From: Pseudomonadota bacterium
GTDB taxonomy: Bacteria > Pseudomonadota > Gammaproteobacteria > Burkholderiales > Sulfuriferulaceae
DNA length: 64,000 nt
Direction of reading: 5' to 3'
Assembly: GCA_021801025.1 (NCBI GenBank)
Contig: JAJYYK010000006.1
Coordinates: 1 to 64,000, forward strand
Positions 1-15,827 of the stretch are shown one piece after another (within the stretch, counting starts at the first letter, position 1; each line of letters starts with the position of its first letter). A program made the position numbers and the translations under genes. A model generated the notes under the pieces. That model was not told the DNA's origin, ran no database searches, and saw only the letters and a list, made by a program, of their open reading frames with translations.

Positions 1-127
1 TGCTTGGCTCAAAGACACATTGGAAAAGCTGCCCACCTGGCCCAACAGCAGGTTGGATGAATTGCTGCCGTTCAAACCGCAAGCATAAAATTTCGGGCGA
101 GAACAGGTGTGTCCGTTAGCCGCTTAC
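1..127 (+). mobile_element. Right end of an IS66-family insertion sequence
   Basis: The first 127 bases hold the end of an IS66-like element: the last codons of its transposase, then a short non-coding tail ending in CCGTTAGCCGCTTAC at 113-127. Read on the other strand this is GTAAGCGGCTAACGG, the type of terminal inverted repeat known for IS66 elements. IS66 elements usually make an 8-bp target duplication, which here would be AGTCAAAT at 128-135. The left end lies outside the window, so element length and the second copy of the duplication cannot be checked. Confidence 0.75.
2..88 (+). CDS. IS66 transposase, C-terminal end (partial)
   Basis: The frame is open from the window edge to a TAA at 86-88 and encodes AWLKDTLEKLPTWP followed by SRLDELLPFKPQA. 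This matches the usual C-terminus of IS66-family DDE transposases (TnpC), which ends in a short 'RLPTHP...DELLPW'-like segment. Only 28 codons are present because the gene starts outside the window, so intactness cannot be judged. The stop lies about 39 bp before the inverted repeat, as expected for the last gene of an IS66 element. Family assignment rests on this short motif plus the adjacent terminal repeat. Confidence 0.7.
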   Translation, partial: AWLKDTLEKLPTWPNSRLDELLPFKPQA

Positions 128-160
128 AGTCAAATGACGCGCTATAAATATCATGAGTGC
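128..160 (+). other. CRISPR leader remnant or truncated first unit between IS66 and repeat 1
   Basis: Only 33 bases separate the IS66 inverted repeat from the first CRISPR repeat. They contain TATAAAT at about 142-148, which resembles a -10 box. In type I-F loci the leader lies on this side when repeats end in CTTAGAAA. The 32 bases at 129-160 are also exactly one spacer length, so the element could instead have inserted at the 3' edge of a repeat inside a longer array. The sequence left of the IS would decide. Confidence 0.5.
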
Positions 161-1269
161 GTTCGCCGCCATACGCGCGGCTTAGAAAGCTCGAATCACG
201 GCGGGATTAACTGGGATAAGGTTCGCCGCCATACGCGCGGCTTAGAAACAGTGAATGATTTCACGCACAGCGACTTGGGAGTTCGCCGCCATACGCGCGG
301 CTTAGAAAAAATGGATATTGATGCTCAGGTCTACACTGGCGTTCGCCGCCATACGCGCGGCTTAGAAATACCAAAGGCCATCAAAAAAATAGCACCTGAA
401 GTTCGCCGCCATACGCGCGGCTTAGAAAGTAAAGCATGATCATTGGCAAATAAACAAATAGTTCGCCGCCATACGCGCGGCTTAGAAAAGTAAGTGAAGC
501 CATAGCCTATCATTCTTAACGTTCGCCGCCATACGCGCGGCTTAGAAATTTTTCGCTGTACTCTGCGCCAAACTCAAAAGGTTCGCCGCCATACGCGCGG
601 CTTAGAAATCTCTTGATAAAAATGTGTTTGATGTTTATTCGTTCGCCGCCATACGCGCGGCTTAGAAATCAACAGGCGAAGAAATATGTTGTGTAAAATC
701 GTTCGCCGCCATACGCGCGGCTTAGAAAACTACGGAGTACACGCCATTTCGCATGGGCCAGTTCGCCGCCATACGCGCGGCTTAGAAAGACCGGCATGGG
801 CATGATTCCCTAACACCATGGTTCGCCGCCATACGCGCGGCTTAGAAAATGCGGTGACCGCGGAAACAATTGAGCAGGTGCGTTCGCCGCCATACGCGCG
901 GCTTAGAAAAGGGCGTTTTCGGGCGTTAGGTTAGCCGACGCGTTCGCCGCCATACGCGCGGCTTAGAAATATCGGGGCGTTGAATCCGTCATCAACACCA
1001 AGTTCGCCGCCATACGCGCGGCTTAGAAATCAACAGGCGAAGAAATATGTTGTGTAAAATCGTTCGCCGCCATACGCGCGGCTTAGAAAACAATCTGCTG
1101 GATTTAATCCTGCCCTGTTGCGTTCGCCGCCATACGCGCGGCTTAGAAAGTTATTCACAAACCCATTTTCACACAAAAAAGGTTCGCCGCCATACGCGCG
1201 GCTTAGAAATCAACAGATGTGCCAGTTTCTGGCGGTAATGTGTTCGCCGCCATACGCGCGGCTTAGAAA
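161..1269 (+). CRISPR. CRISPR array, 19 repeats and 18 spacers, type I-F-like repeat
   Basis: Nineteen identical 28-base repeats (GTTCGCCGCC...GCGGCTTAGAAA) begin at 161, 221, 281, 341, 401, 461, 521, 581, 641, 701, 761, 821, 882, 942, 1002, 1062, 1122, 1182 and 1242. Spacers are 32 bases except spacer 12 (849-881), which is 33. Length, 60-bp period and the GTTC...CTTAGAAA ends match the type I-F repeat class. The hairpin pairs repeat bases 5-9 (GCCGC) with 17-21 (GCGGC) around a 7-base loop. Spacer 9 (669-700) and spacer 15 (1030-1061) are identical. Neither end repeat is degenerate. No cas gene occurs in the window; they may lie left of the IS66 element or be missing. Confidence 0.98.
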
Positions 1270-1577
1270 TCAATGGTGAGGCGTGAGGGCTTCGCCGGTA
1301 ATCTCCCCAATAATCCGCCGGGATTTGAAGTAGAGTTTTCTCGCAATTCACAAAGGGGAAGTTTTACGTAAAATGCTCACGATTTTCAGGCAGTCAGATC
1401 ATCGCCTTATATTCCAGCAGTCACAACATCACTCGTTGCAAGCGCCTGAGTTTTTGACCCCTGAGGCTCTCAGAGCTTCAGTTAAAAATCCAGAGTAGAG
1501 ATGAAAAGATCATTCAACCTGTCGTCTGAGCGGAACGCAGCAAAAGCGCGGCGTCCATCAGCTTTACATGATGCGTC
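1270..1577. other. Intergenic stretch after the CRISPR array
   Basis: About 308 bases between the last CRISPR repeat and the toxin gene hold no convincing gene. There is no degenerate extra repeat and no AT-rich leader-like block directly after repeat 19, which supports placing the leader on the other side. I see no RNA gene here. Confidence 0.6.
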
Positions 1578-1832
1578 TCAATAATGAAACCGCAACTGGG
1601 CAATCAGCAACGCATCACCCTCAACGCGATAAACCATGCGGTGCTCGTCGGTGATGCGGCGTGACCAGAAGCCTGATAGCGCATGCTTCAAAGCTTCCGG
1701 CTTTCCCACGCCGGAGAAGGGTTCGCGTTGGGTCTCACGGATCAATTTGTTAATGCGTTCAACCATGCGCTTGTCCTGCTTTTGCCAGTAGAGGTAATCA
1801 TCCCATGCCTCGTCCGCAAAAATCAGCCTCAC
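1578..1832 (-). CDS. yoeB: YoeB-family toxin (mRNA interferase)
   Basis: This 84-residue protein is very close in length and sequence to E. coli YoeB: it has the WDDYLYWQ segment near residue 10 and LSGFWSRRIT near 52-61. YoeB is a RelE-fold endoribonuclease that enters the ribosomal A site and cuts translated mRNA. The residues known as catalytic in E. coli YoeB (Glu46, Arg65, His83) are all present at the same positions, and the protein ends in the usual His-Tyr, so the toxin looks active. Its ATG overlaps the last 4 bases of the antitoxin gene (ATGA), giving translational coupling. It lies in accessory DNA beside a CRISPR array, where it may help stabilise the island (inference). Confidence 0.95.
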   Translation of the reverse strand: MRLIFADEAWDDYLYWQKQDKRMVERINKLIRETQREPFSGVGKPEALKHALSGFWSRRITDEHRMVYRVEGDALLIAQLRFHY

Positions 1833-2080
1833 TCTGCCAGCTTCCGCTCAATGCCTTTGCCGGCGTTCAGTTGCGCGGCTGCCGAAAGAATGCGCTTGGC
1901 GTTAGTGGGCGTGCGCAAGAGGTAAGCAGTTTCCTCAAGCGCTTTGAAATCTTCGAGCGAGAGCATCACCACGGCTTGTTCGCCGTTGCGAGTAATGATT
2001 AAAGCTTCGTGGTCGTTGCAAACTCTATCCATCGTGCTGGCAAGGTTTGCGCGAACAGTGGTGTAGGTCATTGCATCCAT
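1829..2080 (-). CDS. yefM: YefM-family antitoxin
   Basis: This 83-residue protein of the Phd/YefM family starts MDAMTYTTVRANLA and carries the family core (DHEALIITRNGEQAVVMLSLEDFKAL, here shown as overlapping short segments DHEALIITRN and AVVMLSLEDF). The N-terminal half is the DNA-binding dimer domain; the C-terminal tail (about residues 55-83) wraps and neutralises YoeB. It precedes yoeB with a 4-base overlap, the usual antitoxin-first order. The ATG at 2080 follows AGGAG at good spacing. It probably represses its own promoter through the TGTACA-type inverted repeat just upstream. Confidence 0.95.
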   Translation of the reverse strand: MDAMTYTTVRANLASTMDRVCNDHEALIITRNGEQAVVMLSLEDFKALEETAYLLRTPTNAKRILSAAAQLNAGKGIERKLAE

Positions 2081-2095
2081 GTTGGCTCTCCTGAT

Positions 2096-2135
2096 ATGTA
2101 CGCATTACTGTACATCTAAAAGTGTGAATTGTCCA
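2096..2135 (-). promoter_or_regulatory. yefM-yoeB promoter with overlapping operator
   Basis: Reading leftward there is TGGACA (2135-2130), a 17-base spacer and TACAGT (2112-2107), a good sigma70 pair. An inverted repeat ATGTAC-N8-GTACAT occupies 2096-2115 and covers the -10 box. YefM is known to bind repeats with a TGTACA core, so this is a natural autoregulatory site. Confidence 0.7.
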
Positions 2136-2205
2136 GTACGACGCAAAGGCGCCCAACCCGGCAATGAAGCGGACTGTCCCCAGCGAAGCCATATCCACCA
2201 TCATT

Positions 2206-2463
2206 TTATTTCCCCCTGCTGGTTACCTGTTCCTCTTTTGACGGCCTGCCTTTGCGACGCGGTATGGGCTGTGCCATAATAGGCACTGGGTTTTCCATTT
2301 GCGAAGTTATCCAATCCTGAACATCGGATTGACGAAAACGCAGCAAACGCCCCAGTTTCACGGCTGGCGGCAACGATAGCCCTTGTGCTCTGCGGTTGTA
2401 TACGGTTTGAACAGACATGCCGAGCATTTCGCCCAGCACTTCCGGGGTAAGTAATTTTTCCAT
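2206..2463 (-). CDS. AlpA/excisionase-like helix-turn-helix protein
   Basis: This 85-residue protein has a winged-helix HTH of the MerR/AlpA/excisionase type at residues 3-55: LLTPEVLGEMLGMSVQTVYN, then a wing with LGRLLRFRQSDVQDWI. Such proteins act as excisionases or as transcription activators of integrase genes on integrated elements. The C-terminus (IPRRKGRPSKEE) is basic. The ATG follows GGAG with good spacing. It lies about 195 bp inside the tRNA-Asn att scar, as expected for an island recombination module, but no integrase gene is seen in the window. It may be a remnant or may control an integrase at the other end of the island. Confidence 0.75.
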   Translation of the reverse strand: MEKLLTPEVLGEMLGMSVQTVYNRRAQGLSLPPAVKLGRLLRFRQSDVQDWITSQMENPVPIMAQPIPRRKGRPSKEEQVTSRGK

Positions 2464-2468
2464 ATCGC

Positions 2469-2493
2469 AACTCCATTCTTGTTATGTGGAGTT
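2469..2493 (-). promoter_or_regulatory. Inverted repeat upstream of the AlpA-like gene
   Basis: AACTCCA at 2469-2475 and TGGAGTT at 2487-2493 form a perfect 7-bp inverted repeat with an 11-base centre, starting 6 bases before the AlpA-like start codon. It could be an autoregulatory operator or a hairpin that hides the GGAG ribosome binding site, which is part of one arm. Confidence 0.4.
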
Positions 2494-2657
2494 AAATATA
2501 GCTACCGCCGCCTAAAGCTTTGACATATTTTTTGCTGCAAATCTGCTGCACCATACCCGGTAAATGGGGGTATAATCGCAAAACACACGGTATAGCTAAG
2601 CAGATGATTTAATTGGCAACAGTCTCGGAAGCCCCGCCAAATAAGGCGCTTTTCCCC

Positions 2658-2704
2658 GACTGTTAATCCGCAGGTCCCTGGTTCGAGTCCAGGTCGGGGA
2701 GCCA
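2658..2704 (+). repeat. 3' half of tRNA-Asn: probable island attachment site
   Basis: From GACTGTTAATCCG onward the sequence is the anticodon loop (GTT), T arm and 3' acceptor strand of tRNA-Asn, ending in CCA at 2702-2704. The D arm and 5' anticodon strand are missing, so this is not a working tRNA gene. Tyrosine recombinases commonly integrate at the 3' half of tRNA genes and leave such a copy at the far end. The scar marks the right border of the island holding the CRISPR array, TA pair and AlpA-like gene. An intact tRNA-Asn would be expected to the left, outside the window. Confidence 0.8.
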
Positions 2705-2719
2705 AGACATAGCAAGTGG

Positions 2720-2744
2720 GCCATCTTTCGAGATGGCTTTTTTG
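2720..2744 (+). terminator. Rho-independent terminator after the tRNA-Asn fragment
   Basis: GCCATCT at 2720-2726, a TTCG tetraloop and AGATGGC at 2731-2737 form a perfect 7-bp stem followed by a run of seven T. It sits 16 bases after the tRNA-Asn CCA and is probably the original terminator of that tRNA gene. Confidence 0.85.
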
Positions 2745-3016
2745 TTTTTCCAGGTGTTCTGTATTGACTCAAGGCACACGCTTATCCACTTGTCAAAAGG
2801 CTGGGCCTGCCAAAACCGTTTCATCAGATTGGAAACGGGGCAGCCATTGAGGGCGGTGTCGGGGTAATCTGACTAGAGCCACTGACCGCCAGCGATAATG
2901 AGTTCAAGAGCGAACGCTGGTACAAGACATTTTTTCAAAGCCAGGAGTCCAGCGGGTGATCCCTTCAGCGAGGGGTGATTCCAGTGGGTTTCAACCAATA
3001 TTAAGGAGTAATACCA
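2745..3016. other. Intergenic stretch right of the att scar
   Basis: About 270 bases without a clear gene. A short open stretch near 2871-2959 encodes SDNEFKSERWYKTFF and faintly recalls the core of a DDE transposase, but it is too short to assign. Its end holds the AAGGAG ribosome binding site (3003-3008) of the next gene. Confidence 0.5.
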
Positions 3017-3550
3017 GTGACCAACGCACAACGCCGGGCAGCCAGACGCATGGCTGAATTGGATCCATTACGTAACGACAGTAAGTTTGAGCCAACGCAC
3101 AGCAGTGCGTTTTACCCTCATGAGGCAGGCGAGTATTACCTCGCTGCCGTGGATACTGTCGGCACGATCAAGCTATTCGCCAAGGATCTGAAGCCGCCCG
3201 TTCACAGCTATGGCATCACCACCGTTCGTTTTGAACTGGATACTGATACCGGCAAATGGATTTGGTTTGATGGTAAGCAGAATCAATCTCCGCGCAAAAA
3301 CTCGGATGGTTGGCGTCTTGGTAGCAAGAAATTACATGACACGCGCGAAGGTGCGGAAGCCGAGGTTCAGCGCGAGATGATCAAGAACGGTGACCGGGTG
3401 ACCAGGGTGCATGACTTGCCAGACGATATGACTGCGCTGAGAAAGATCCGTAGCGCTCACCATCCAGATCGCAACAACTCCGATGCCGATCAGGATCTCT
3501 ATCAGGCTGTCGTCGAGAAACTGGACAGGATGCGCATGGCAATTCAGTGA
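3017..3550 (+). CDS. Orphan protein with a C-terminal J-domain-like HPD segment
   Basis: This 177-residue protein starts at a GTG with a strong AAGGAG 8 bases upstream. I do not recognise the N-terminal 130 residues: they are polar and rich in charged residues, with no signal peptide or membrane segment. The last 40 residues (LRKIRSAHHPDRNN, then DLYQAVVEKLDRM) look like helix II, the HPD loop and helix III of a DnaJ J-domain; helix I and the usual YxxLG start are not evident. A J-domain would dock DnaK. It lies alone between the tRNA-Asn scar and tRNA-Lys, so it may belong to an older island. The J-domain call is from motif only. Confidence 0.65.
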   Translation: MTNAQRRAARRMAELDPLRNDSKFEPTHSSAFYPHEAGEYYLAAVDTVGTIKLFAKDLKPPVHSYGITTVRFELDTDTGKWIWFDGKQNQSPRKNSDGWRLGSKKLHDTREGAEAEVQREMIKNGDRVTRVHDLPDDMTALRKIRSAHHPDRNNSDADQDLYQAVVEKLDRMRMAIQ

Positions 3551-3810
3551 ACCGGCCGGGGTTCTGGCCCGCACCCCTCACTCTTGCCCAGCAGGTTTTT
3601 ATCACAGTGAAACATCGCGCAGCTTGCCCACCTGTCAATCAGCTTTCAATTTTTGCCGGTAATCAGCATGTGTTTTCCAGTAATCGATTTTAAAAATCGC
3701 TTATGGAATAAGCATTCCAGGCGTTTTTGCAGGGTGCTGATTTTGTCATGAAGTGGAAAATTTTGCGCGCCGTTTGGCAGTGAGTCCTTACCCTCACGCC
3801 GTACTTAAAC
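3551..3810. other. Intergenic stretch with two palindromes
   Basis: No gene is seen. Two short perfect palindromes lie close together: CGATTTT-A-AAAATCG at 3685-3699 and TGGAAT-AAGC-ATTCCA at 3704-3719. They could be protein binding sites or remnants of element ends; nothing around them decides this. Confidence 0.5.
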
Positions 3811-3843: not shown

Positions 3844-3919
3844 TGGTGGGTCGGGCGGGATTCGAACCCGCGACCAACGGATTAAAAGTCCGCTGCTCTA
3901 CCGACTGAGCTACCGACCC
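3844..3919 (-). tRNA. tRNA-Lys (anticodon TTT)
   Basis: On the minus strand a 76-base cloverleaf starts GGGTCGGTAGCTCAG and ends CCGACCC-A-CCA. The anticodon loop is CTTTTAA (anticodon TTT), and the T loop GTTCGAATC is canonical. The CCA is encoded. Confidence 0.97.
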
Positions 3920-5819: not shown

Positions 5820-7673
5820 CTACTCGGATAAACGCACACGGACAGTGCTTAAAATACCTGTTGCATCCAGGCCACATTGGCGCAGCAATTGCGCATGATC
5901 ACCGTGTTCGATGTATTCGTCAGGCAAACCTAATTGGAGCACTTTGCACGGAATGCCTAAATAATGCAAGTATTCACTTACGGCACTGCCAGCACCACCC
6001 ATGACGGAGTTTTCTTCCAGGGTGACAAGTAATTCATGTGTGCGGGCCAATTGCTCGATGAGGGCGTGATCGATGGGCTTTACAAAACGCATGTCGGCCA
6101 CACTGGCATCCAGTTGTTCGCCTGCTTGCAATGCGGGGATGACCAGGCTGCCGAAAGCCAACAATGCAACGCGCCGACCTGTGCGACGCAGTACGCCTTT
6201 ACCCAGGGGAAGGCTCTGCATCATGTTGTCAATGGTTGCGTTGGGTCCTGTGCCGCGTGGATAACGCACGGCGCAAGGGGTATTTAACTTCGTGGCAGTG
6301 TAAAGCATTTGCCGGCACTCATTTTCGTCGGAGGGTGCCATAATCGTCAAATTGGGCACGCAGCGCAGATAACTGAGGTCAAATGATCCTGCATGCGTGG
6401 GGCCGTCGGCACCTACTAATCCAGCGCGGTCAATGGCGAAAACGACGGGGAGATTTTGCAAGGCAATGTCGTGGATCAGTTGGTCGTAAGCGCGTTGCAG
6501 AAAAGTTGAATAAATGGCCACAACGGGTTTGTAACCGGCTGCCGCCAAACCGGCGGCAAAGGTAAGTGCGTGTTGTTCTGCGATACCGACATCAAAATAG
6601 CGGTCTGGATACAGTTCAGAAAAACGTACCAAACCTGATCCTTCGCGCATTGCGGGTGTAATACCGACCAGCTTGGGTTCCAGTGCCGCCATGTCGCACA
6701 GCCAGTCACTGAAAACCTGGGTGTAAGTGGCTGGAACAGTCGTTTTTTCCTTGATGCCGGTTTCGGGTTGGAACGCACTGACGCCGTGATACAGACAAGG
6801 ATTTTCCTCGGCCAGAGGATAACCTTTTCCTTTTTGTGTTACCACATGTAAAAATTGTGGGCCGGGCAAACGACGAATGTTCGTAAGCGTGTCAACCAGC
6901 ACATCCAGATCGTGGCCGTCGATAGGACCAATATAATTGAAGCCAAATTCTTCAAACAATGTGCTGGGTGTGATCATTCCTTTTACGTGCTCTTCAGCGC
7001 GTTTTGCCAAATCCAGCATGGGTGGCATGTGAGCGAGTACTTTCTCGCTGGCACGGCGTGCGGCGGAATAAAAACGACCGGACATCAGCTTGGCCAGGTA
7101 ATTGTTGAGCGCACCCACATTGGGTGAAATCGACATGTCATTGTCGTTGAGGATCACCAAAAGATTCGCATTCATATTTCCCGCATTGTTGAGCGCCTCA
7201 AATGCAATGCCCGCAGTCATGGCGCCATCACCAATGACGGCAATGGCGCGGTTGTCTGAACCGTCCAGTTGTGCTGCCACAGCCATACCTAACGCAGCTG
7301 AAATGGATGTGCTGGAATGCCCGGTTCCAAAGGCATCATATTCGCTTTCACTGCGTCGCGGAAATCCGGCGATTCCCCCCGCTCTACGCAGTTCAGCCAT
7401 GGCTGCGCGTCGTCCGGTGAGGATTTTGTGCGGATAGCTTTGGTGACCGACATCCCAGATGATGCGGTCATCAGGTGTATTGAACACATAGTGCAGCGCA
7501 ATGCTGAGTTCTACTGCGCCGAAATTCGAGGCAAAATGACCGCCTGTGCGAGAAATGCTGTCGAGCATGAATTCGCGTATGGACTGTGCCAGTTCGGGCA
7601 ATTGTTCGCGATGAAGCAGGCGCAGATCCGTCGGGGAGTCAATGGAGGTAAGCAAGGAATGGGTTGGATTCAA
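5820..7673 (-). CDS. dxs: 1-deoxy-D-xylulose-5-phosphate synthase
   Basis: A 617-residue thiamine-diphosphate enzyme that condenses pyruvate and glyceraldehyde 3-phosphate, the first step of the MEP isoprenoid pathway. Visible marks are [16 protein letters not shown] near residue 75, the ThDP motif [18 protein letters not shown] near 150, and the transketolase middle domain around [17 protein letters not shown] near 365-380. The start is a TTG that overlaps the ispA stop (TTGA), and the N-terminus [15 protein letters not shown] fits family starts, so TTG is likely real. It closes the xseB-ispA-dxs operon. Confidence 0.98.
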
Positions 7674-8572
7674 GAGGTTCTCTGCAAAATAAGTGCGGCG
7701 AGATCAAGCAAGCGCTGGTTGTGGGGCAGGTGCTTAATGGCAGCAGTGGCTTGTTGATGTAAGGAGTGTGCAAATTGGCGCGCGGCATCACAACCCATGA
7801 GGCTGACATAGGTGGATTTAAGCTGATGGGCGTCTTTGCCAGCGGTTTTGCCCAATTGTTCGCTGGATGCCGTGGCGTCCAAAATATCATCGACCACCTG
7901 GAAAGCCAGTCCAACGGCGCGCGCATACTGCTTGAGTGCGGCCAGATGCGCGGCTTCCAGTGGGCCGCCACACATCGCCCCCAGGCAAATTGCAGCGTCA
8001 ATCAAGGCCCCCGTTTTGTGCTGGTGCATCAATTCAAGCTCCGCCAGGCTAATGTGTTGTCCTGTGTTGGCCAAGTCGATAGCTTGTCCACCCGCCATGC
8101 CGTGAGAGCCGCTAGCCGTTGCCAGCAGTCGTATCATTTCTACTTGTGGTAACCGGGTGTGCGGGGATGTTTGGGCCAAGTCAGGGTGTGCCAGAAGTTC
8201 AAAAGCCAGGCTTTGTAAGCTGTCTCCGACTAAAAGTGCTGTGGCTTCGTCAAAAGCGACATGACAGGTCGGCTTGCCGCGACGCAGTACATCATCGTCC
8301 ATGCAGGGCAGATCATCATGTACCAGTGAATAGGCGTGAACAAGTTCTACCGCGCAAGCAACGATGGTCACGTGTTCGGGGCATGCTTGATGGGTTTCAC
8401 CTGCAGCAAACGCCAGTAAGGGACGAATGCGTTTGCCACCACCCAATGCCACATAACGCATGGCGGTATGTAATCTGTCCGTAGCATCATTCGAAATCGG
8501 TAAAAAACGCTCTAAAGCTTGTTCGACACGGGAAAGCCGGTGATGGGACCAATTGGTAAACTCAGTCGTCAC
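7670..8572 (-). CDS. ispA: Farnesyl diphosphate synthase (polyprenyl synthetase)
   Basis: A 300-residue all-alpha prenyltransferase that builds geranyl and farnesyl diphosphate from IPP and DMAPP. The first Asp-rich motif is [18 protein letters not shown] near residue 90-105 (short spacing typical of bacterial FPP synthases) and the second is VVDDILD near 225. GKRIRPLL near 47 binds the substrate diphosphate. The GTG start overlaps xseB by 11 bases and the stop overlaps dxs by 4, showing translational coupling in an isoprenoid operon. Confidence 0.97.
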
Positions 8573-8807
8573 GCTGCACGCTCACCGGGATATAGGGTTT
8601 GAGTAAAGTATTTTCCAAAATTTCTACTTGTTGACGTGCGCTATCCAAAGTGTTTTGACAAAATTTAAGTAGTTCAGCCCCGTTTTGATATGCCAGCAAT
8701 GACTGTTCAAGGGTAAGTTGGCCGGATTCCATTTCACCAACCAGCCGCTCCAATTCACGCATAGCGGATTCAAAACTGGCGGGGGAGGTGTTTGCCAGAT
8801 GAGTCAT
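8562..8807 (-). CDS. xseB: Exodeoxyribonuclease VII small subunit
   Basis: An 81-residue helical protein with the XseB core SFESAMRELERLVGEMESGQ (about residues 10-29) and LEQSLLAYQNGAELLKFC. Several copies bind XseA to form ExoVII, which degrades single-stranded DNA. I prefer the ATG at 8807; an in-frame TTG at 8825 is possible but would start almost at the predicted transcription start. Its place ahead of ispA-dxs is the common proteobacterial arrangement. xseA is not in the window. Confidence 0.93.
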   Translation of the reverse strand: MTHLANTSPASFESAMRELERLVGEMESGQLTLEQSLLAYQNGAELLKFCQNTLDSARQQVEILENTLLKPYIPVSVQRDD

Positions 8808-8837
8808 AATGAGTTGTACAGGCAATGGAAACTCTAA

Positions 8838-8867
8838 ATTTTACCGAATAATTGCATCGAACGCCAA
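8838..8867 (-). promoter_or_regulatory. Probable promoter of xseB-ispA-dxs
   Basis: Leftward TTGGCG (8867-8862), 18 bases, TAAAAT (8843-8838). The -35 box is one arm of the palindrome CGCCAA-TT-TTGGCG at 8862-8875, which might be an operator. Transcription would start near 8831, giving a short leader to the ATG at 8807. Confidence 0.45.
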
Positions 8868-9118
8868 TTTTGGCGATAATCTGCGATTGGGCGGGTGAGC
8901 AAATTCTGGATTGAGCTTGCCTTGTGTGAATGATGACGAGATTTTCATACCAGAGCCAGTGGGTATGGTTCAGAGTAATCAACGGGCTAAATGTTGAAAT
9001 GCAGATGTGGTGACAATCATTTGAGTGATGTTTTTTAGCGAAATATTTGTCATTAATTTGTTATAAAAAATTTTAATTACTACGGGTTTGCCACTTCATT
9101 GGGTCTGTGCTCTCAATT

Positions 9119-10228
9119 ATGTCTGATTTTCTTGTCACATCGCAGTTAACCTGCGCTTCCCCACATTTACCAATTTCCTGGTATTTTGATCCTGAAATTT
9201 ATGCTTTGGAGCTTGAGTATATTTTTAATCAGGGTCCTGCCTATGTGGGGCATGAATTGATGGTGCCCAACGTGGGTGATTATCAGGTATTGGAAACCAC
9301 TTCGCACGCCTCAATGCTGGTGCGCCACGAGCAGGGTATTTCCCTGTTGTCTAATATTTGCCGTCATCGCCAGGCCACCATGTATGAAGGGCGCGGCCAC
9401 ACCAAACAATTGGTCTGCCCCTTGCATCGCTGGACTTATGACATGCAAGGGAAATTATTGGGTGCACCCCATTTTCCGGAAAATCCATGTTTGAATTTGC
9501 CAGAGCAAGGGCCGCTGACGCAGTGGAAGGGGTTGCTGTTTTCCGGGCAACGCGATGTGGCCGGTGATTTGGCCCGTCTTGGCGTGAGTGATGACCTGAA
9601 TTTCAATGGTTACATGCTCGATCGCGTGATGATCGAGGAGTATGCGTTTAACTGGAAAACCTTTATTGAGGTGTACCTGGAAGATTATCATGTTGAACCT
9701 TTTCATCCGGGATTAGGTAATTTTGTCACCTGTGATGATTTAAAATGGGAATATGGCGACTGGTACAGTGTGCAGTCCGTCGGTGTGGCGCGAGGTTTGC
9801 GTCGGGCCGGCAGTGCTGTGTATGCCAAATGGCAAGAGCGTGTGTTGCAATACCGCAATGGCGTGCCGCCTGAACGAGGGGCTATTTGGTTAACCTATTA
9901 TCCCAATATTATGGTTGAATGGTACCCTCATGTATTGGTAGTCAGCACAATTGTCCCAACGGGCATTGAATCGTGCCGTAATGTAGTGGAATTTTACTAT
10001 CCCGAAGACATTGTGCTGTTTGAGCGTGAATTTATCGAAGCCGAACAAGCCGCATATGCTGAAACGGCTGTCGAAGACGATGAAATTTGTCGCCGTATGC
10101 ATGAAGGCCGCAAATTGTTGTATCAACAAGGTCGTGATGAGCGAGGGCCATATCAGTCTCCCATGGAAGATGGAATGGTTCATTTTCATGAGTTTATGCG
10201 AAAAAAACTGTTGCCGCATTTGGCTTGA
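9119..10228 (+). CDS. Rieske [2Fe-2S] ring-hydroxylating oxygenase, alpha-subunit type
   Basis: A 369-residue oxygenase. The N-terminal Rieske domain binds a [2Fe-2S] cluster through Cys81-x-His83 (ICRHR) and Cys100-x2-His103 (CPLH). The C-terminal catalytic domain shows EVYLEDYHVEPFHPG near residue 185-200, with the two His of the mononuclear iron site. It resembles alpha subunits of aromatic-ring dioxygenases and related demethylases; the substrate cannot be told. No beta subunit, ferredoxin or reductase gene is adjacent. The ATG at 9119 is chosen; a GTG at 9107 is an alternative, and neither has a strong ribosome binding site. Confidence 0.88.
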   Translation: MSDFLVTSQLTCASPHLPISWYFDPEIYALELEYIFNQGPAYVGHELMVPNVGDYQVLETTSHASMLVRHEQGISLLSNICRHRQATMYEGRGHTKQLVCPLHRWTYDMQGKLLGAPHFPENPCLNLPEQGPLTQWKGLLFSGQRDVAGDLARLGVSDDLNFNGYMLDRVMIEEYAFNWKTFIEVYLEDYHVEPFHPGLGNFVTCDDLKWEYGDWYSVQSVGVARGLRRAGSAVYAKWQERVLQYRNGVPPERGAIWLTYYPNIMVEWYPHVLVVSTIVPTGIESCRNVVEFYYPEDIVLFEREFIEAEQAAYAETAVEDDEICRRMHEGRKLLYQQGRDERGPYQSPMEDGMVHFHEFMRKKLLPHLA

Positions 10229-10281
10229 ATCCAAATAATCCATTAGACGGAAGAGAGTCATTGGAAAAATCAGGATGTGAG

Positions 10282-11004
10282 ATGATGACCGACAATGCTG
10301 TTTTAAAAAACAATTCCATCATTCATTTTTCTGCGCTGAGACTTCGTGCTGGGACTTGGCTTAAACTGAGCCATTTTTTGGGGGAGGAGCCTGCCTATGA
10401 TGTGGAGTTTGTTGCGGCAATTCATGGTAAAAGTATTTTTGTGTCGCAGCCGGATGCACCATCAGGCGGTATTCGGGTCGGTGATCAATATGCGATATAC
10501 GGGTTCAATGGAACGAGTGAATTTACCTTTGCTGCTGAGATACTGCAATTGCAAGACGGGCCATTTTTTTATGCGCAATTAACTTATCCTGATGCGGTTG
10601 AGGTACGTGTAGTGCGTGATGCGTTGCGCGTGAACGTGTCTATTCCTGTGCTCGTCATGCCTGATGGTTCGTCCAGTCATGTTTCAGGCGCAATCAAAGA
10701 TTTAAGTGTAAAAGGAGCCATGGTTGAGTCTGCGATACCTGCAGGTCGCGTTGGTGACAAGGTCAGCCTCGTATTTTCGACTGAAATCGACGCGAGAGGG
10801 AAAGTCGATTTGGATATCCCCGCCAGGATCATTTATGTGCGTAAGCTCGATGGAGAGTGTGTTTTCAGAAGTGGACTTGAATTTGGTCATATTGCGCGGA
10901 GTGATGAACTGATTTTGTATTACTTGCTGTTCACGCATTACGCCAAAATAACTAACGAAGTTGGTGCGGCGATTATGCAACTCAAGAAAAACGCTACGCC
11001 TTAA
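10282..11004 (+). CDS. PilZ-domain protein, YcgR-like c-di-GMP receptor
   Basis: A 240-residue two-domain protein: an N-terminal YcgR-type beta domain (to about residue 105) and a C-terminal PilZ domain. The c-di-GMP motif is visible as RDALR (RxxxR) followed by KDLSVKGAMV (D/N-x-S-x-x-G). Such proteins slow flagellar motors or adjust secretion when c-di-GMP rises. The ATG at 10282 has AGGA 6 bases upstream; an upstream in-frame TTG at 10225 is less likely. It follows the Rieske gene on the same strand by 53 bases, but a functional link is not evident. No flagellar gene is in the window. Confidence 0.85.
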   Translation: MMTDNAVLKNNSIIHFSALRLRAGTWLKLSHFLGEEPAYDVEFVAAIHGKSIFVSQPDAPSGGIRVGDQYAIYGFNGTSEFTFAAEILQLQDGPFFYAQLTYPDAVEVRVVRDALRVNVSIPVLVMPDGSSSHVSGAIKDLSVKGAMVESAIPAGRVGDKVSLVFSTEIDARGKVDLDIPARIIYVRKLDGECVFRSGLEFGHIARSDELILYYLLFTHYAKITNEVGAAIMQLKKNATP

Positions 11005-11160
11005 CCCATCACATTCGAAGGCCAAAATAAGGCTTGCCTTGCAAGCGCAGCAAACTACTCATCGCCTTGAGATGCTGCTGTTGTCACGAACGATGATTAT
11101 TGTTTGTATACCGTGATGATCATTTGAAAATTTGGCACCTCAAACAAGCAGGTTTTCAAA

Positions 11161-11191
11161 CAAAAACGGCTCAGAACTTAATCTGAGCCGT
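11161..11191 (-). terminator. Terminator after tRNA-Val
   Basis: ACGGCTCAGA (11166-11175) and TCTGAGCCGT (11182-11191) form a perfect 10-bp stem with a 6-base loop. Leftward it is followed by a run of five T. It lies about 10 bases past the tRNA-Val 3' end. Confidence 0.88.
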
Positions 11192-11200
11192 TGTTTTATC

Positions 11201-11275
11201 TGGTGGGCGATACGGGGTTCGAACCTGTGACCCCTGCCGTGTGAAGGCAGTGCTCTACCGCTGAGCTAACCGCCC
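11201..11275 (-). tRNA. tRNA-Val (anticodon CAC)
   Basis: On the minus strand a 75-base cloverleaf starts GGGCGGTTAGCTCAG and ends ATCGCCC-A-CCA. The anticodon arm CTGCC-TTCACAC-GGCAG gives anticodon CAC, which reads GUG. CCA is encoded. Confidence 0.95.
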
Positions 11276-11289
11276 AAATGAAGGCCGCC

Positions 11290-11319
11290 ATTAAACCATG
11301 TCTGGTAAGGATTCGTCAA
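11290..11319 (-). promoter_or_regulatory. Promoter of tRNA-Val
   Basis: Leftward TTGACG (11319-11314), 18 bases, TTTAAT (11295-11290). The -35 box contains the TGA stop codon of the upstream phosphorylase gene. Confidence 0.65.
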
Positions 11320-12074
11320 GGTGTATTCGATGCGCCGTGTAGCGCGACAAGTTGTTCTAATACCAGGCGCACGCGTGTCATGGCGGGAGTAAGCGCGTCT
11401 TTGATTTCGTTGGCCTGGATGGCGGTCTTACTGCTTCCGCGCCCGGCGGCATAGTTGGACACTACGCCGATAGCGGCGTAACACAGCTCCAATTCGCGGG
11501 CGAGGCATGCTTCCGGCATACCGGTCATGCCGACCATGTCGGCACCATCGCGCTCCAGGCGGTTGATCTCGGCGGCGGTTTCCAGGCGCGGTCCTTGCAC
11601 GCAGGCGTACACGCCATGGTCAATGCAAGGTTCATGGATAGAGGCAGCGGCCTTCATGATGTTGAGTCGTAATTGCGAACAATAGGGCTCTGTAAAATCA
11701 ATGTGCTCAACTGATTGCCCGTCATCATTAAAAAAAGTGGTGGCGCGACCATGGGTGTAGTCGATGATTTGGTCAGGAACGACCAATGTGCCGGGTACCA
11801 GGTCAGGGTGAATGCCCCCAACGCTGGCGACCGAGGCGATGTGGGTCACGCCATGTTGTTTGAGTGCCCAAATGTTGGCCTGGTAGTTGACTTTGTGCGG
11901 TGGAATGGTTTGCCCGTACCCATGCCGGGCAAGAAAGATAATGCCGTGTCCGTTGATTTCGCCAAAGGTCAGTGCACCGGAAGGCTCACCGTAGGGTGTG
12001 CGAGCGACCTGCCGGTGGGTGATGGTCAGGTTGGCGAGTTGAGTGAGTCCGGTTCCGCCGATGATGGCCAGCAT
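11316..12074 (-). CDS. S-methyl-5'-thioinosine phosphorylase (MTAP/PNP family)
   Basis: A 252-residue member of the MTAP/PNP-2 family, starting MLAIIGGTGL with the phosphate-binding GGTG. The purine-site segment is VSNYAAG; family members with Asn here prefer 6-oxopurines, whereas Asp is typical of adenine-type MTAP. This points to methylthioinosine rather than methylthioadenosine as substrate, giving hypoxanthine and methylthioribose 1-phosphate. MVGMTGMPEACLARELEL is close to the Pseudomonas enzyme type. The next gene on the same strand upstream is a hypoxanthine phosphoribosyltransferase, which fits a salvage pair. Confidence 0.87.
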   Translation of the reverse strand: MLAIIGGTGLTQLANLTITHRQVARTPYGEPSGALTFGEINGHGIIFLARHGYGQTIPPHKVNYQANIWALKQHGVTHIASVASVGGIHPDLVPGTLVVPDQIIDYTHGRATTFFNDDGQSVEHIDFTEPYCSQLRLNIMKAAASIHEPCIDHGVYACVQGPRLETAAEINRLERDGADMVGMTGMPEACLARELELCYAAIGVVSNYAAGRGSSKTAIQANEIKDALTPAMTRVRLVLEQLVALHGASNTP

Positions 12075-12089
12075 ATTGAATCCTTTTGA

Positions 12090-12653
12090 TTAATGATCGG
12101 GTTGCGTATTGTCTTGGGGGATGGCATAAATGGCTGGCAGGTTGCGCCATACGCCATTGATGTCCATGCCGCAGCCAAAGACAAAACGATTAGGCAGCGT
12201 TAAGCCCACGTATTCAGCTTGAATGGGTTTTGTCGTGTTGGTAAGTTTTTCCGTCAGGACAGCGCAGGCTACCGTTACTGCGCCCATTTTGAATAATTCC
12301 TGTTTAATGGCGTTCAGGGTGTGGCCTTCATCGAGTATGTCATCGAGCAAGAGCACTTGCTGGCCTGATATGGAGACGCTGGGCATGGACAACCATTCGA
12401 GTTGACCACCTTGGGTGTTCATGCGGTAACGACTGACATGGATGTGATCGCATTGTAAAGGGAAGTTGAGCTGGGGTAATAATTGTCCGGCAAACATCAT
12501 GCCACCGTTCATGACCGTCAGCATCAATGGAAAACGATGCTGGTAATCGGCAGTGATACGTATGGCGAGTTGATGGATGGCCTTATTCACGGTTTCTGCA
12601 TCGCAGATCAAATCTGCCGTGTCGAGGATTTTCTGTGCGTGTTCAGGGTTCAT
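12090..12653 (-). CDS. hpt: Hypoxanthine-guanine phosphoribosyltransferase
   Basis: A 187-residue type I phosphoribosyltransferase with the PRPP loop VLLLDDILDEGHTL near residue 100-113. It makes IMP or GMP from hypoxanthine or guanine and PRPP. MNGGMMFAGQLL near 49 is the usual PPi-loop region. I chose the ATG at 12653 (MNPEHAQKILD); an upstream TTG at 12686 would add 11 residues. It is 15 bases upstream of the methylthioinosine phosphorylase gene and likely shares its mRNA, so hypoxanthine released there can be recycled directly. Confidence 0.9.
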   Translation of the reverse strand: MNPEHAQKILDTADLICDAETVNKAIHQLAIRITADYQHRFPLMLTVMNGGMMFAGQLLPQLNFPLQCDHIHVSRYRMNTQGGQLEWLSMPSVSISGQQVLLLDDILDEGHTLNAIKQELFKMGAVTVACAVLTEKLTNTTKPIQAEYVGLTLPNRFVFGCGMDINGVWRNLPAIYAIPQDNTQPDH

Positions 12654-12723
12654 CGTGCGTGTAAGATGTGTTGAGATGGGGGGCAAGTGCGGCGTTTGTT
12701 AACGCCATTACTTTTTTATTTCA

Positions 12724-13455
12724 TCAACTGCGTTGTCTTCTTGTCTCATATAAACAAATACCGGCGGTAACGGATACATTCATGCTCGCCACGGTTCCGA
12801 ACATGGGAATTTTGACCAGTTCGTCACAATGCTCACGGGTGAGTCGTCGCATGCCGTCGCCTTCTGCACCGAGCACCCATGCGACGGATCCCCGCGCATC
12901 GACCGTGGTGATTTCTTTTTCCGCTTCGCTGTCGGCGCCAATGATGCGCACATGATAGTCCTGAATCTCGCGCAAAGTGCGTGCAAGGTTGACCACCGTC
13001 AGATAGGGCACGGTTTCGGCTGCGCCACAGGCTACCTTGATGACAGTGGGTGTGAGACCTACCGCACGGTCCCTGGGCGCAATGATGGCATTGGCACCCA
13101 TAGCATCTGCGACACGGAGGCAGGCACCCAGATTATGGGGGTCTTGCACACCGTCCAGCACCAGCAACAGCAGTTCTTCGCCTGCGCCTTCCAGCACATC
13201 GTCAATATGGCGCGGCGCGGCGAGTATGGCCACTTTGGCTGCGACCCCCTGATGACGGGCACCACCTGCCATGCCGTCCAGACGGCGTGCATCAATCGGA
13301 ATGACGCGTACATTCTGTTGCTTTGCCGTTTCGAGTAAATCCCGCATACGAGGGTCTTGCCGTGTTGCATCGACATAAACTTCTTCTATACTTGATGCAT
13401 GATTACGTAAACGCGATGTAATGGCGTGGAAACCGTAAATTAAAATACCTGCCAT
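12724..13455 (-). CDS. rlmB: 23S rRNA (guanosine-2251-2'-O)-methyltransferase
   Basis: A 243-residue SPOUT (TrmH-family) enzyme that methylates G2251 of 23S rRNA at the ribose. The N-terminal substrate domain (1-75) starts MAGILIYGFHAITSRL. The knotted SAM-binding domain shows LDGVQDPHNLGACLRVADAMG near 100-120 and VLGAEGDGMRRL with SMNVSVTAGICLYE near 195-238. It follows rnr by 2 bases and is cotranscribed with it, the same order as in many proteobacteria. Confidence 0.96.
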   Translation of the reverse strand: MAGILIYGFHAITSRLRNHASSIEEVYVDATRQDPRMRDLLETAKQQNVRVIPIDARRLDGMAGGARHQGVAAKVAILAAPRHIDDVLEGAGEELLLLVLDGVQDPHNLGACLRVADAMGANAIIAPRDRAVGLTPTVIKVACGAAETVPYLTVVNLARTLREIQDYHVRIIGADSEAEKEITTVDARGSVAWVLGAEGDGMRRLTREHCDELVKIPMFGTVASMNVSVTAGICLYETRRQRS

Positions 13456-13457
13456 CT

Positions 13458-15827
13458 TTAATGTCCTTGTTTTCTTTTGCGAGGTTTATTGTCAGGCTTT
13501 TCGGGTGTGGATTTTACGCGTGTATGGGTTTTTTTGGCCGGTTTTTTCCCCGCCGAAGATTTGGCAGGCGTTTTGATTGCCTTTGGGGTGGTTTGTGGGG
13601 CGTTTTGCGTGGATTTGCTCTGCCCACGCGTGGATTTTCGTCCAGAGTGACCGGATTCAACCAGTTGAAAATCAATCTGGCTGGTATCCAAACTGACCTT
13701 GACGACTTTGACCTCCAGCCGGTCACCCAAACGGAAGCGCGCACCCGTGCGTTCGCCCAACATTTGGTGCCGGGCTTTGTCATAATGGAAATAATCGCTA
13801 CCAAGTTCTGAAATGTGAATCAATCCCTCGACAAACAATTCATCCAGCGCAACAAAGAGGCCAAACCCTGTGACAGCAGAAATGGTGCCGTGGAAAATTT
13901 CACCGACATGGTCCTGCATATAAAAACACTTGAGCCACGATTCTACGTCGCGCGTGGCTTCATCGGCGCGGCGTTCGGTCATCGAGCAATGGGCGCCCAA
14001 GGCTTGCCAGTTGCCGGGATTGTATTTGTCCCCAGTCAGCGCCGCTTTAATGGCGCGATGGATCAGCAAATCGGGATAACGGCGTATCGGTGAAGTGAAA
14101 TGGGTGTAATGCTCATAAGCCAGACCAAAATGCCCCACATTGTCCGGGCTGTATATGGCTTGCTGCAAGGAACGCAACATCACTGTTTGCAACAGTTGAA
14201 CATCCGGACGAGGTTTAATTTGCTGCAACAGGCGAGCATAATCTTTTGCCTGGGGGGTATCTCCACCCGGCAAACCCAAACCAAATTCGGACAAAAACTC
14301 ACGCAAGGCGGTGAGTTTTTCTGGCGTAGGTCCGCCATGGATACGGTAAAGTGTGGTTTGTTTGTGATGTTTTAAATAGCCAGCCGTACACACGTTGGCC
14401 GCCAGCATGCATTCTTCGATGATGCGGTGTGCATCATTGCGTTGAGTAGGCACGATACGCTCGATTTTACGATTTTCATTGAAGATCATTTGAGTTTCAA
14501 TGGTCTCAAAATCGATGGCACCACGGCGTTCCCGCGCTTTTAACAACACCTTAAACAGGCTGTTCAGGTTGTTAAGCTGCGGAAGCAGGTGGCTGTATTC
14601 CTCTGCATTTTCAGGATGTTGCAACCAGTCCCAGACCTGGTCATAGGTCAGTCTTGCATGCGAATACATGACCGCCGGGTAAAAACGATATTGGCTGATC
14701 CCACCGAGTTTGCCTATTTGCATGTCGCATACCATGCACAAGCGCTCCACTTGAGGGTTCAGTGAGCACAGGCCATTGGAGAGCTCTTCCGGTAACATGG
14801 GAATCACACGACGAGGGAAATAGACTGAATTGCCCCGGTTGTAGGCTTCTTTGTCCAAAGGTGAATTGGGCGCAACATAATGGGACACATCGGCGATGGC
14901 CACGATAAGGCGATAGCCACCGTCTTGCGGTTCGCAATACACGGCATCGTCAAAATCACGTGCGGTTTCACCGTCGATGGTGACCAATGGCAAATGCCGG
15001 ATGTCTTCACGTCCGGCAAAATCAACTTTAAGTACTTTTTTGGGTAATTTCGCGGCTTCGGTTTCCACATCATGCGGAAACTCGTAGGGCAGGGCGTGTT
15101 TGCGTAGTGCGATTTCAATTTCCATGCCCGGATCGCTGTATTGACCCAATACTTCCACCACTTGGCCGACAGGCTTGCTGTAACGGGCCACTTGAGCGAT
15201 CAGTTTCACATTCACGACTTCACCGGCTTTCGCCGCGCCTTCGTTGCCGGTCGGAATCAGGATGTCTTGTGTGATGCGCTTGTTTTCAGGTACAACCATC
15301 ATGATGCCGTGTTCGATAATTAAGCGGCCTACAATGTGGGTGTTCGTGCGTTCCAGTACCTCAACAATTTTACCTTCGCGGCGACCACGCCTGTCCAGAC
15401 CGATTTCGCGTCCCATGACGCGATCACCGTGCAGGGCTTTTTGCATCTCTCGTGGCGACAGGAATAAGGAATCACTCCCATCTTCAGGCTCCAGAAAACC
15501 GAAACCATCGGGATGGCCCTGAACGGTGCCCTTGATGAGATCCAGCTTTTCTACCACGCACAAATCGCCGCGCCGGTTTTGAATCAGTTCGCCGTCACGC
15601 TCCATAGCGCGCAAACGTCGGGAAAATAAAATGGATTCTTCTTCGGTAATGCCCAGTTCAGATGCCAATTGGTCAGCCGACCAAGGCACACCTTGCCGCC
15701 GGAGAATCTCCATCACAAATTCGCGGCTGGGCAGGGGGTTGTCGTAACGTTCACGCTCGCGTTCAAGAAATGGGTCTTCAAGGCGCAACGTGTTGAGAGA
15801 TTTTTTAGGATTCGTGGGGTGTGTCAT
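13458..15827 (-). CDS. rnr: Ribonuclease R
   Basis: A 789-residue 3'-5' exoribonuclease of the RNB family that digests structured RNA. Order: N-terminal winged helix (about 25-85), cold-shock domains, RNB domain with the metal-binding DGETARDFDDAVYCE near 285-300, an S1 domain near 640-720 (GEIFHGTISAVTGFGLFV), and a long Lys/Arg-rich tail that may bind RNA. The ATG at 15827 has AAGGA upstream; a TTG two codons earlier is also possible. rlmB follows immediately. The gene diverges from tRNA-Leu. Confidence 0.97.
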   Translation of the reverse strand: MTHPTNPKKSLNTLRLEDPFLERERERYDNPLPSREFVMEILRRQGVPWSADQLASELGITEEESILFSRRLRAMERDGELIQNRRGDLCVVEKLDLIKGTVQGHPDGFGFLEPEDGSDSLFLSPREMQKALHGDRVMGREIGLDRRGRREGKIVEVLERTNTHIVGRLIIEHGIMMVVPENKRITQDILIPTGNEGAAKAGEVVNVKLIAQVARYSKPVGQVVEVLGQYSDPGMEIEIALRKHALPYEFPHDVETEAAKLPKKVLKVDFAGREDIRHLPLVTIDGETARDFDDAVYCEPQDGGYRLIVAIADVSHYVAPNSPLDKEAYNRGNSVYFPRRVIPMLPEELSNGLCSLNPQVERLCMVCDMQIGKLGGISQYRFYPAVMYSHARLTYDQVWDWLQHPENAEEYSHLLPQLNNLNSLFKVLLKARERRGAIDFETIETQMIFNENRKIERIVPTQRNDAHRIIEECMLAANVCTAGYLKHHKQTTLYRIHGGPTPEKLTALREFLSEFGLGLPGGDTPQAKDYARLLQQIKPRPDVQLLQTVMLRSLQQAIYSPDNVGHFGLAYEHYTHFTSPIRRYPDLLIHRAIKAALTGDKYNPGNWQALGAHCSMTERRADEATRDVESWLKCFYMQDHVGEIFHGTISAVTGFGLFVALDELFVEGLIHISELGSDYFHYDKARHQMLGERTGARFRLGDRLEVKVVKVSLDTSQIDFQLVESGHSGRKSTRGQSKSTQNAPQTTPKAIKTPAKSSAGKKPAKKTHTRVKSTPEKPDNKPRKRKQGH

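Follow-up and report, generated by a model that had tools for sequence, protein, structure and literature searches.

An IS66 element abuts the leader side of a type I-F-like CRISPR array, with insertion inside the array as the favoured reading

Did the IS66 element that lies 33 bp before a CRISPR array in this genome cut the leader of the array, or did it split a longer array in two? We examined a 64,000-nucleotide stretch, hereafter the window, which corresponds to bases 1–64,000 of contig C19. The contig starts inside the IS66 element: window base 1 is base 1 of C19, so that only the final 127 bp of this copy are present. On the plus strand at 2–88, beginning at the contig edge, they encode the 28-aa C-terminal end of the transposase TnpC, whose IS66 C-terminal element (PF13817, DDE_Tnp_IS66_C, E = 1.2e-8) identifies the family; the same bases matched seven plasmid records labelled 'IS66 family transposase' at 79–85% identity across 59–68 bp. 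The right terminal inverted repeat follows at 105–127 on the minus strand. It is identical at 23 of 23 positions to the IS66 end on contig C15, and bases 105–130 share 96% identity across 26 bp with the IS66 end on C4, the inverted repeat being common to the right and left ends of the IS66 copies of this genome. These alignments confirm the original prediction that the element stops at 127. The rest of the junction was also described correctly: repeat mapping places the first CRISPR repeat at 161–188, and the intervening 128–160 reads as 33 bp with A as its first base. The prediction had further stressed that 129–160 is exactly 32 bases long. The length is right, but it carries little weight as a coincidence, because a cut spacer could account for any gap of up to 32 bp, and at 33 bp only the A is put to the test, with a chance of agreement of about 1/4. 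The A at 128 agrees with the repeat end, as an internal cut requires, and this weak agreement amounts to one base.

In the array itself (161–1269, plus strand), 18 spacers separate 19 identical 28-bp repeats; 17 spacers are 32 nt long and one, at 849–881, is 33 nt. In addition to repeat mapping, the Rfam model CRISPR-DR4 gave a weak match (22.4 bits, below its gathering score of 35). The 28-bp repeat, its I-F hairpin shape, its TTAGAAA end and the 32-nt spacers are all those of type I-F arrays, and judged by these features the array is I-F-like; to speak of a full type I-F system would go beyond this evidence. The repeat hairpin has a computed energy of −9.3 kcal/mol, a value at which 24 of 200 shuffled sequences fold equally well (z = −1.32). 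With its AGAAA end at the right, the repeat has the shape of the I-F repeats in the arrays surveyed below, and in this orientation the leader side is the one facing IS66, to the left. A mismatch in the hairpin (repeat position 10 with 16) was considered as an oddity and dropped, as it also occurs in the repeats of three surveyed loci (L141, L146 and L147). The perfect last repeat was likewise dropped as a sign of truncation on the right: in 11 surveyed arrays the end appeared to fall within the fetched stretch, and eight of these close with a perfect repeat, two of the eight being uncertain (L154 is followed by masked bases and L124 perhaps continues), and three with a degenerate one. One spacer is present twice, at 669–700 and 1030–1061, six units apart, and the spacers between the two copies are not duplicated. 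Beginning 27 bp past the last repeat, 1297–1342 on the plus strand (GGTAATCTCCCC...) is a possible relic of an IS end, with 78–79% identity across 46–47 bp to the ends of another repeated element at the edges of C5, C10 and C18 (E = 3e-4 to 1e-3).

No further copy of the repeat was found elsewhere in the assembly or in 17 other genomes of the genus when up to three mismatches were allowed. Exact searches gave no match in the genome contig collection or in viral contigs, and neither did a search of the genome contig collection with one base left free and a second repeat start required. Among 399 genomes of the order, a pattern with one mismatch and six free loop bases matched three: the source genome, G112 (a single site) and G393 (47 repeats). 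As these searches yielded no suitable array, a comparison with the leader of an array carrying the same repeat was impossible. The G393 array belongs to a divergent I-F locus of the same order (L124, about 6200–13904), in which Cas1 lies between Csy4 and the array. Its Csy4 reaches 24.8 bits, below the NCBIfam cut-off of 36.25, and in PADLOC fits the type IV Cas6 model best (2.7e-19, vs 2.2e-15 for Cas6f); Cas1f and Csy3 exceed their NCBIfam cut-offs, Csy2 falls below its own (76.8 vs 154.1 bits), and Cas2/3 was not recognised among the 11 of 21 long ORFs tested.

We then set 128–160 against leaders from a wider survey, which covered arrays adjoining the Csy4 genes of the class (Csy4 was detected in 35 of 369 genomes) together with the G393 array. 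The survey examined 46 loci (30, plus 15 extra stretches and L124) and gave 32 arrays, of which 28 were kept; L161, L172 and L173 had already been counted, and L150 was on the wrong strand. Arrays beyond the fetched stretches were missed, and a first, stricter finder had returned 21. A position model was built from the last 33 bp of the 28 I-F leaders, the leaders being scored leave-one-out and 590 spacers with the full model, and it separates the two classes with an AUC of 0.989. Leaders scored −8.1 to 21.2 and spacers −16.1 on average (sd 6.9). At −8.3, 128–160 lies in a range that none of the 28 leaders reaches, since no leader scores as low or lower, whereas 12.4% of the 590 spacers score as high or higher; the lowest true leader, that of the divergent system L170, is practically equal at −8.1. 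At three of the most conserved positions, 128–160 carries bases that leaders avoid. T is conserved at −33 (25/28), −19 (24/28), −18 (23/28) and −4 (21/28), and 128–160 has A at −33 (0/28), C at −19 (1/28) and G at −4 (1/28); it agrees with most leaders in T at −18 and A at −8. In a looser test, 128–160 scores two of five for the TGWTG motif near −33, as do 6 of the 28 leaders, which is not decisive.

Other properties of 128–160 were less discriminating. Its best promoter-like match reaches 8 of 12 positions and consists of TATCAT (149–154), separated from the repeat by 6 bp, and a poor CAGTCA lying 16 bp farther upstream, whose first base lies inside IS66. By manual count, 17 of the 28 leaders have a match of at least 8/12 with the second hexamer ending 3–6 bp before the repeat, and 11.3% of random 45-mers reach 8/12 anywhere; a stricter promoter scan listed no promoter-like site at 128–160. 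The excerpt of PMC12259127 available for comparison contained no usable leader distance. The A+T share of 0.61 does not separate leader from spacer, as it falls both within the range of 21 leaders from the stricter finder (0.52–0.85) and within that of the 11 of 18 spacers of this array that were examined (0.44–0.75). Phage records gave no match to 128–160, and viral contigs none to two of its sub-patterns. This says little, because phage matches to the remaining spacers were not convincing either: the whole array returned 26 phage records at E of about 4 each, which we took as chance, and the initial 23 bases of the repeated spacer had no match in viral contigs. Taken together, 128–160 most likely represents the last base of a lost repeat followed by a complete 32-nt spacer. 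This is a lean; the original prediction had named the right alternatives, a cut leader or a split array, and the comparison tilts towards the split without proving it.

An element that transposed into this site should also have left an 8-bp duplication at its other end, and the original proposal to look for it was sound in principle, as another IS66 copy of this genome shows. The same 8 bp, CATCTACC, flank the left end on C4 and the right end on C9, and on this sequence match the two ends are two sides of one insertion with CATCTACC as a proper target duplication. The assembly (2,378,547 bases in 20 contigs, 99.96% complete by a computed estimate) was searched in full for IS66 ends, a search that a degraded left end could escape, and 39 of the 40 contig ends, all except the far end of C20, were fetched for reading. 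Two left ends are assembled, on C4 and C15, and three right ends, on C19, C9 (127 bp identical) and C11 (101 bp identical), all three at contig edges. Three flanks stay unpaired: GGTAATAG at the C15 left end, and the right flanks beginning AATGGACA on C11 and AGTCAAAT on C19. Since these do not pair, the assembly must lack one or more IS66 left ends, unless the element of one right end has lost its left end. A search for the C15 and C11 flanks in the source genome and seven relatives revealed no pairing of IS66 ends. AGTCAAAT was found at neither assembled left end, C4 carrying CATCTACC and C15 GGTAATAG. On its own this octamer is uninformative, with 70 copies in the genome against 72 of a reversed control pattern, so that a copy would be informative only if it touched an IS66 left end; apart from that at window position 128, two copies lie less than 150 bp from a contig end (C6 and C7), and neither touches an IS66 end. 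The smallest of the 20 contigs has 17,860 bases, from which we infer that short contigs were removed from the assembly.

Searches for the genes expected beside such an array had a similar outcome. In the assembly, which lacks some contigs, neither Csy4 (PF09618) nor Cas1 (PF01867) had a match at E 0.001, and no Csy4 was found in 18 genomes of the family, the source genome included and some of them incomplete. The Csy4 search is not fully sensitive, as the divergent Csy4 of the G393 array scores weakly. The absence of both genes may reflect real loss or missing contigs.

With moderate confidence, we favour an insertion of IS66 within a type I-F-like array, at the final base of one of its repeats. 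The downstream part, one spacer and then 19 repeats, would have stayed joined to the IS66 right end. The leader would have lain beyond the element, together with whatever leader-proximal units and cas operon there were, all of this now on a missing contig or deleted. Two arguments support this reading: the poor fit of 128–160 to the leader model, and the larger target, as an array of at least 1.1 kb should be hit by a random insertion more often than a type I-F leader, which measures about 0.1–0.2 kb. Counting against it, the former upstream part of the array, which we infer, was not seen, the assembly holding no other copy of the repeat. That IS66 instead cut into the leader 33 bp ahead of the first repeat seems unlikely to us; 128–160 would then be the repeat-proximal end of a divergent leader, and the −35 box and the integration motifs would have been displaced by IS66. 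The conserved leader block does start at about −34/−33 (T in 21/28 and 25/28, respectively), exactly where IS66 begins, TATCAT could serve as a −10 box at the distance used by leaders, and divergent I-F leaders such as those of L124 and L170 depart from the common pattern; yet 128–160 scores under all 28 leaders, those divergent ones included, and mismatches three of their most conserved positions.

A further explanation concerns the left side of the element and is compatible with either reading of 128–160, so that our confidence in it overlaps with that in the other two. The junction may have arisen by recombination between copies of IS66 or by a deletion between them; the C15 left end and the C19 right end, for example, could now form one hybrid element. 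In that case the DNA between them, with the leader and the cas operon, would be gone and no AGTCAAAT duplication would exist. We hold this to be possible, though on the doubtful side. That two left ends but three right ends are assembled would fit, as would the C15 flank that pairs with no assembled right flank and the failure to find Csy4 and Cas1 in the assembly; in addition, cas deletion beside IS elements has been proposed for E. coli BL21 and close relatives, according to the sections of PMC2886076 considered here. The same facts are, however, explained by missing short contigs, and with all three right ends at contig edges, no complete copy with such a right end is assembled.

Under all of these readings, the array segment is separated from most or all of its leader. 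The remaining array would be parted from the leader's integration and promoter signals and should not grow at its first repeat. Even if 128–160 were leader, 33 bp would probably not suffice, because in Acinetobacter baumannii acquisition was undetectable with a leader cut to 60 bp, and a high rate required 100 bp or more (PMC9602844, in the portion consulted). Transcription would occur at most by read-through from IS66, which is conceivable because the IS66 genes run towards the array and a simple scan listed no terminator-like site on the plus strand at 1–1600; the resulting RNA would be processed only if an undetected Csy4 exists. It is very improbable that, after removal of the leader and cas genes, the leftover array persists as a fixed memory with the IS66 operon driving its transcription. 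If it did, that removal would be the work of IS66 itself or of recombination between IS66 copies.

Such damage is already well known, and an array cut by IS66 is in this sense ordinary. IS elements within CRISPR arrays, and cas-less arrays flanked by IS elements, are described for E. coli in the available sections of PMC2886076. There, CRISPR2 of strain ATCC 8739 likewise has an IS inside the array; its whole locus is known, whereas here one side is assembled. In the same sections, strains BL21, BL21-DE3 and B-REL606, which carry IS elements on both sides, resemble our case in having many repeats, no cas genes found and IS elements by the CRISPR region; they differ in host and repeat, and the lack of cas genes here may be an assembly gap. 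The residual CRISPR of Haloquadratum walsbyi HBSQ001, as presented in the part of PMC3119063 considered, also has a mobile element in a spacer and has lost its cas genes; in this archaeon the element is a MITE and the leader was kept. The present locus adds to the known examples of CRISPR arrays frozen when a mobile element parted them from their leader. It also advises caution with draft genomes: where an array adjoins a contig edge, its seemingly orphan state may be due to nothing more than the loss of a short contig.

Downstream of the array, window 1–3810 had no match in the fetched stretches of eight relatives and looks like an accessory region from this comparison. All eight share the tRNA-Lys gene at 3844–3919 in their fetched stretches. 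In the closest relative by FolE2 (G009, 99%), the contig ends at this tRNA-Lys, at window position 3844, and thus stops short of the array. A YoeB/Phd-YefM toxin-antitoxin pair (1578–2080) lies between the array and the conserved chromosome. A stretch at about 2655–2702 resembles, in our own reading, the 3′ half of a tRNA gene; ARAGORN gives the tRNA-Lys only. This tRNA-like stretch may be the attachment-site remnant of an integrated element that carried the array. A small HTH_17 protein is encoded near it, at 2206–2463.
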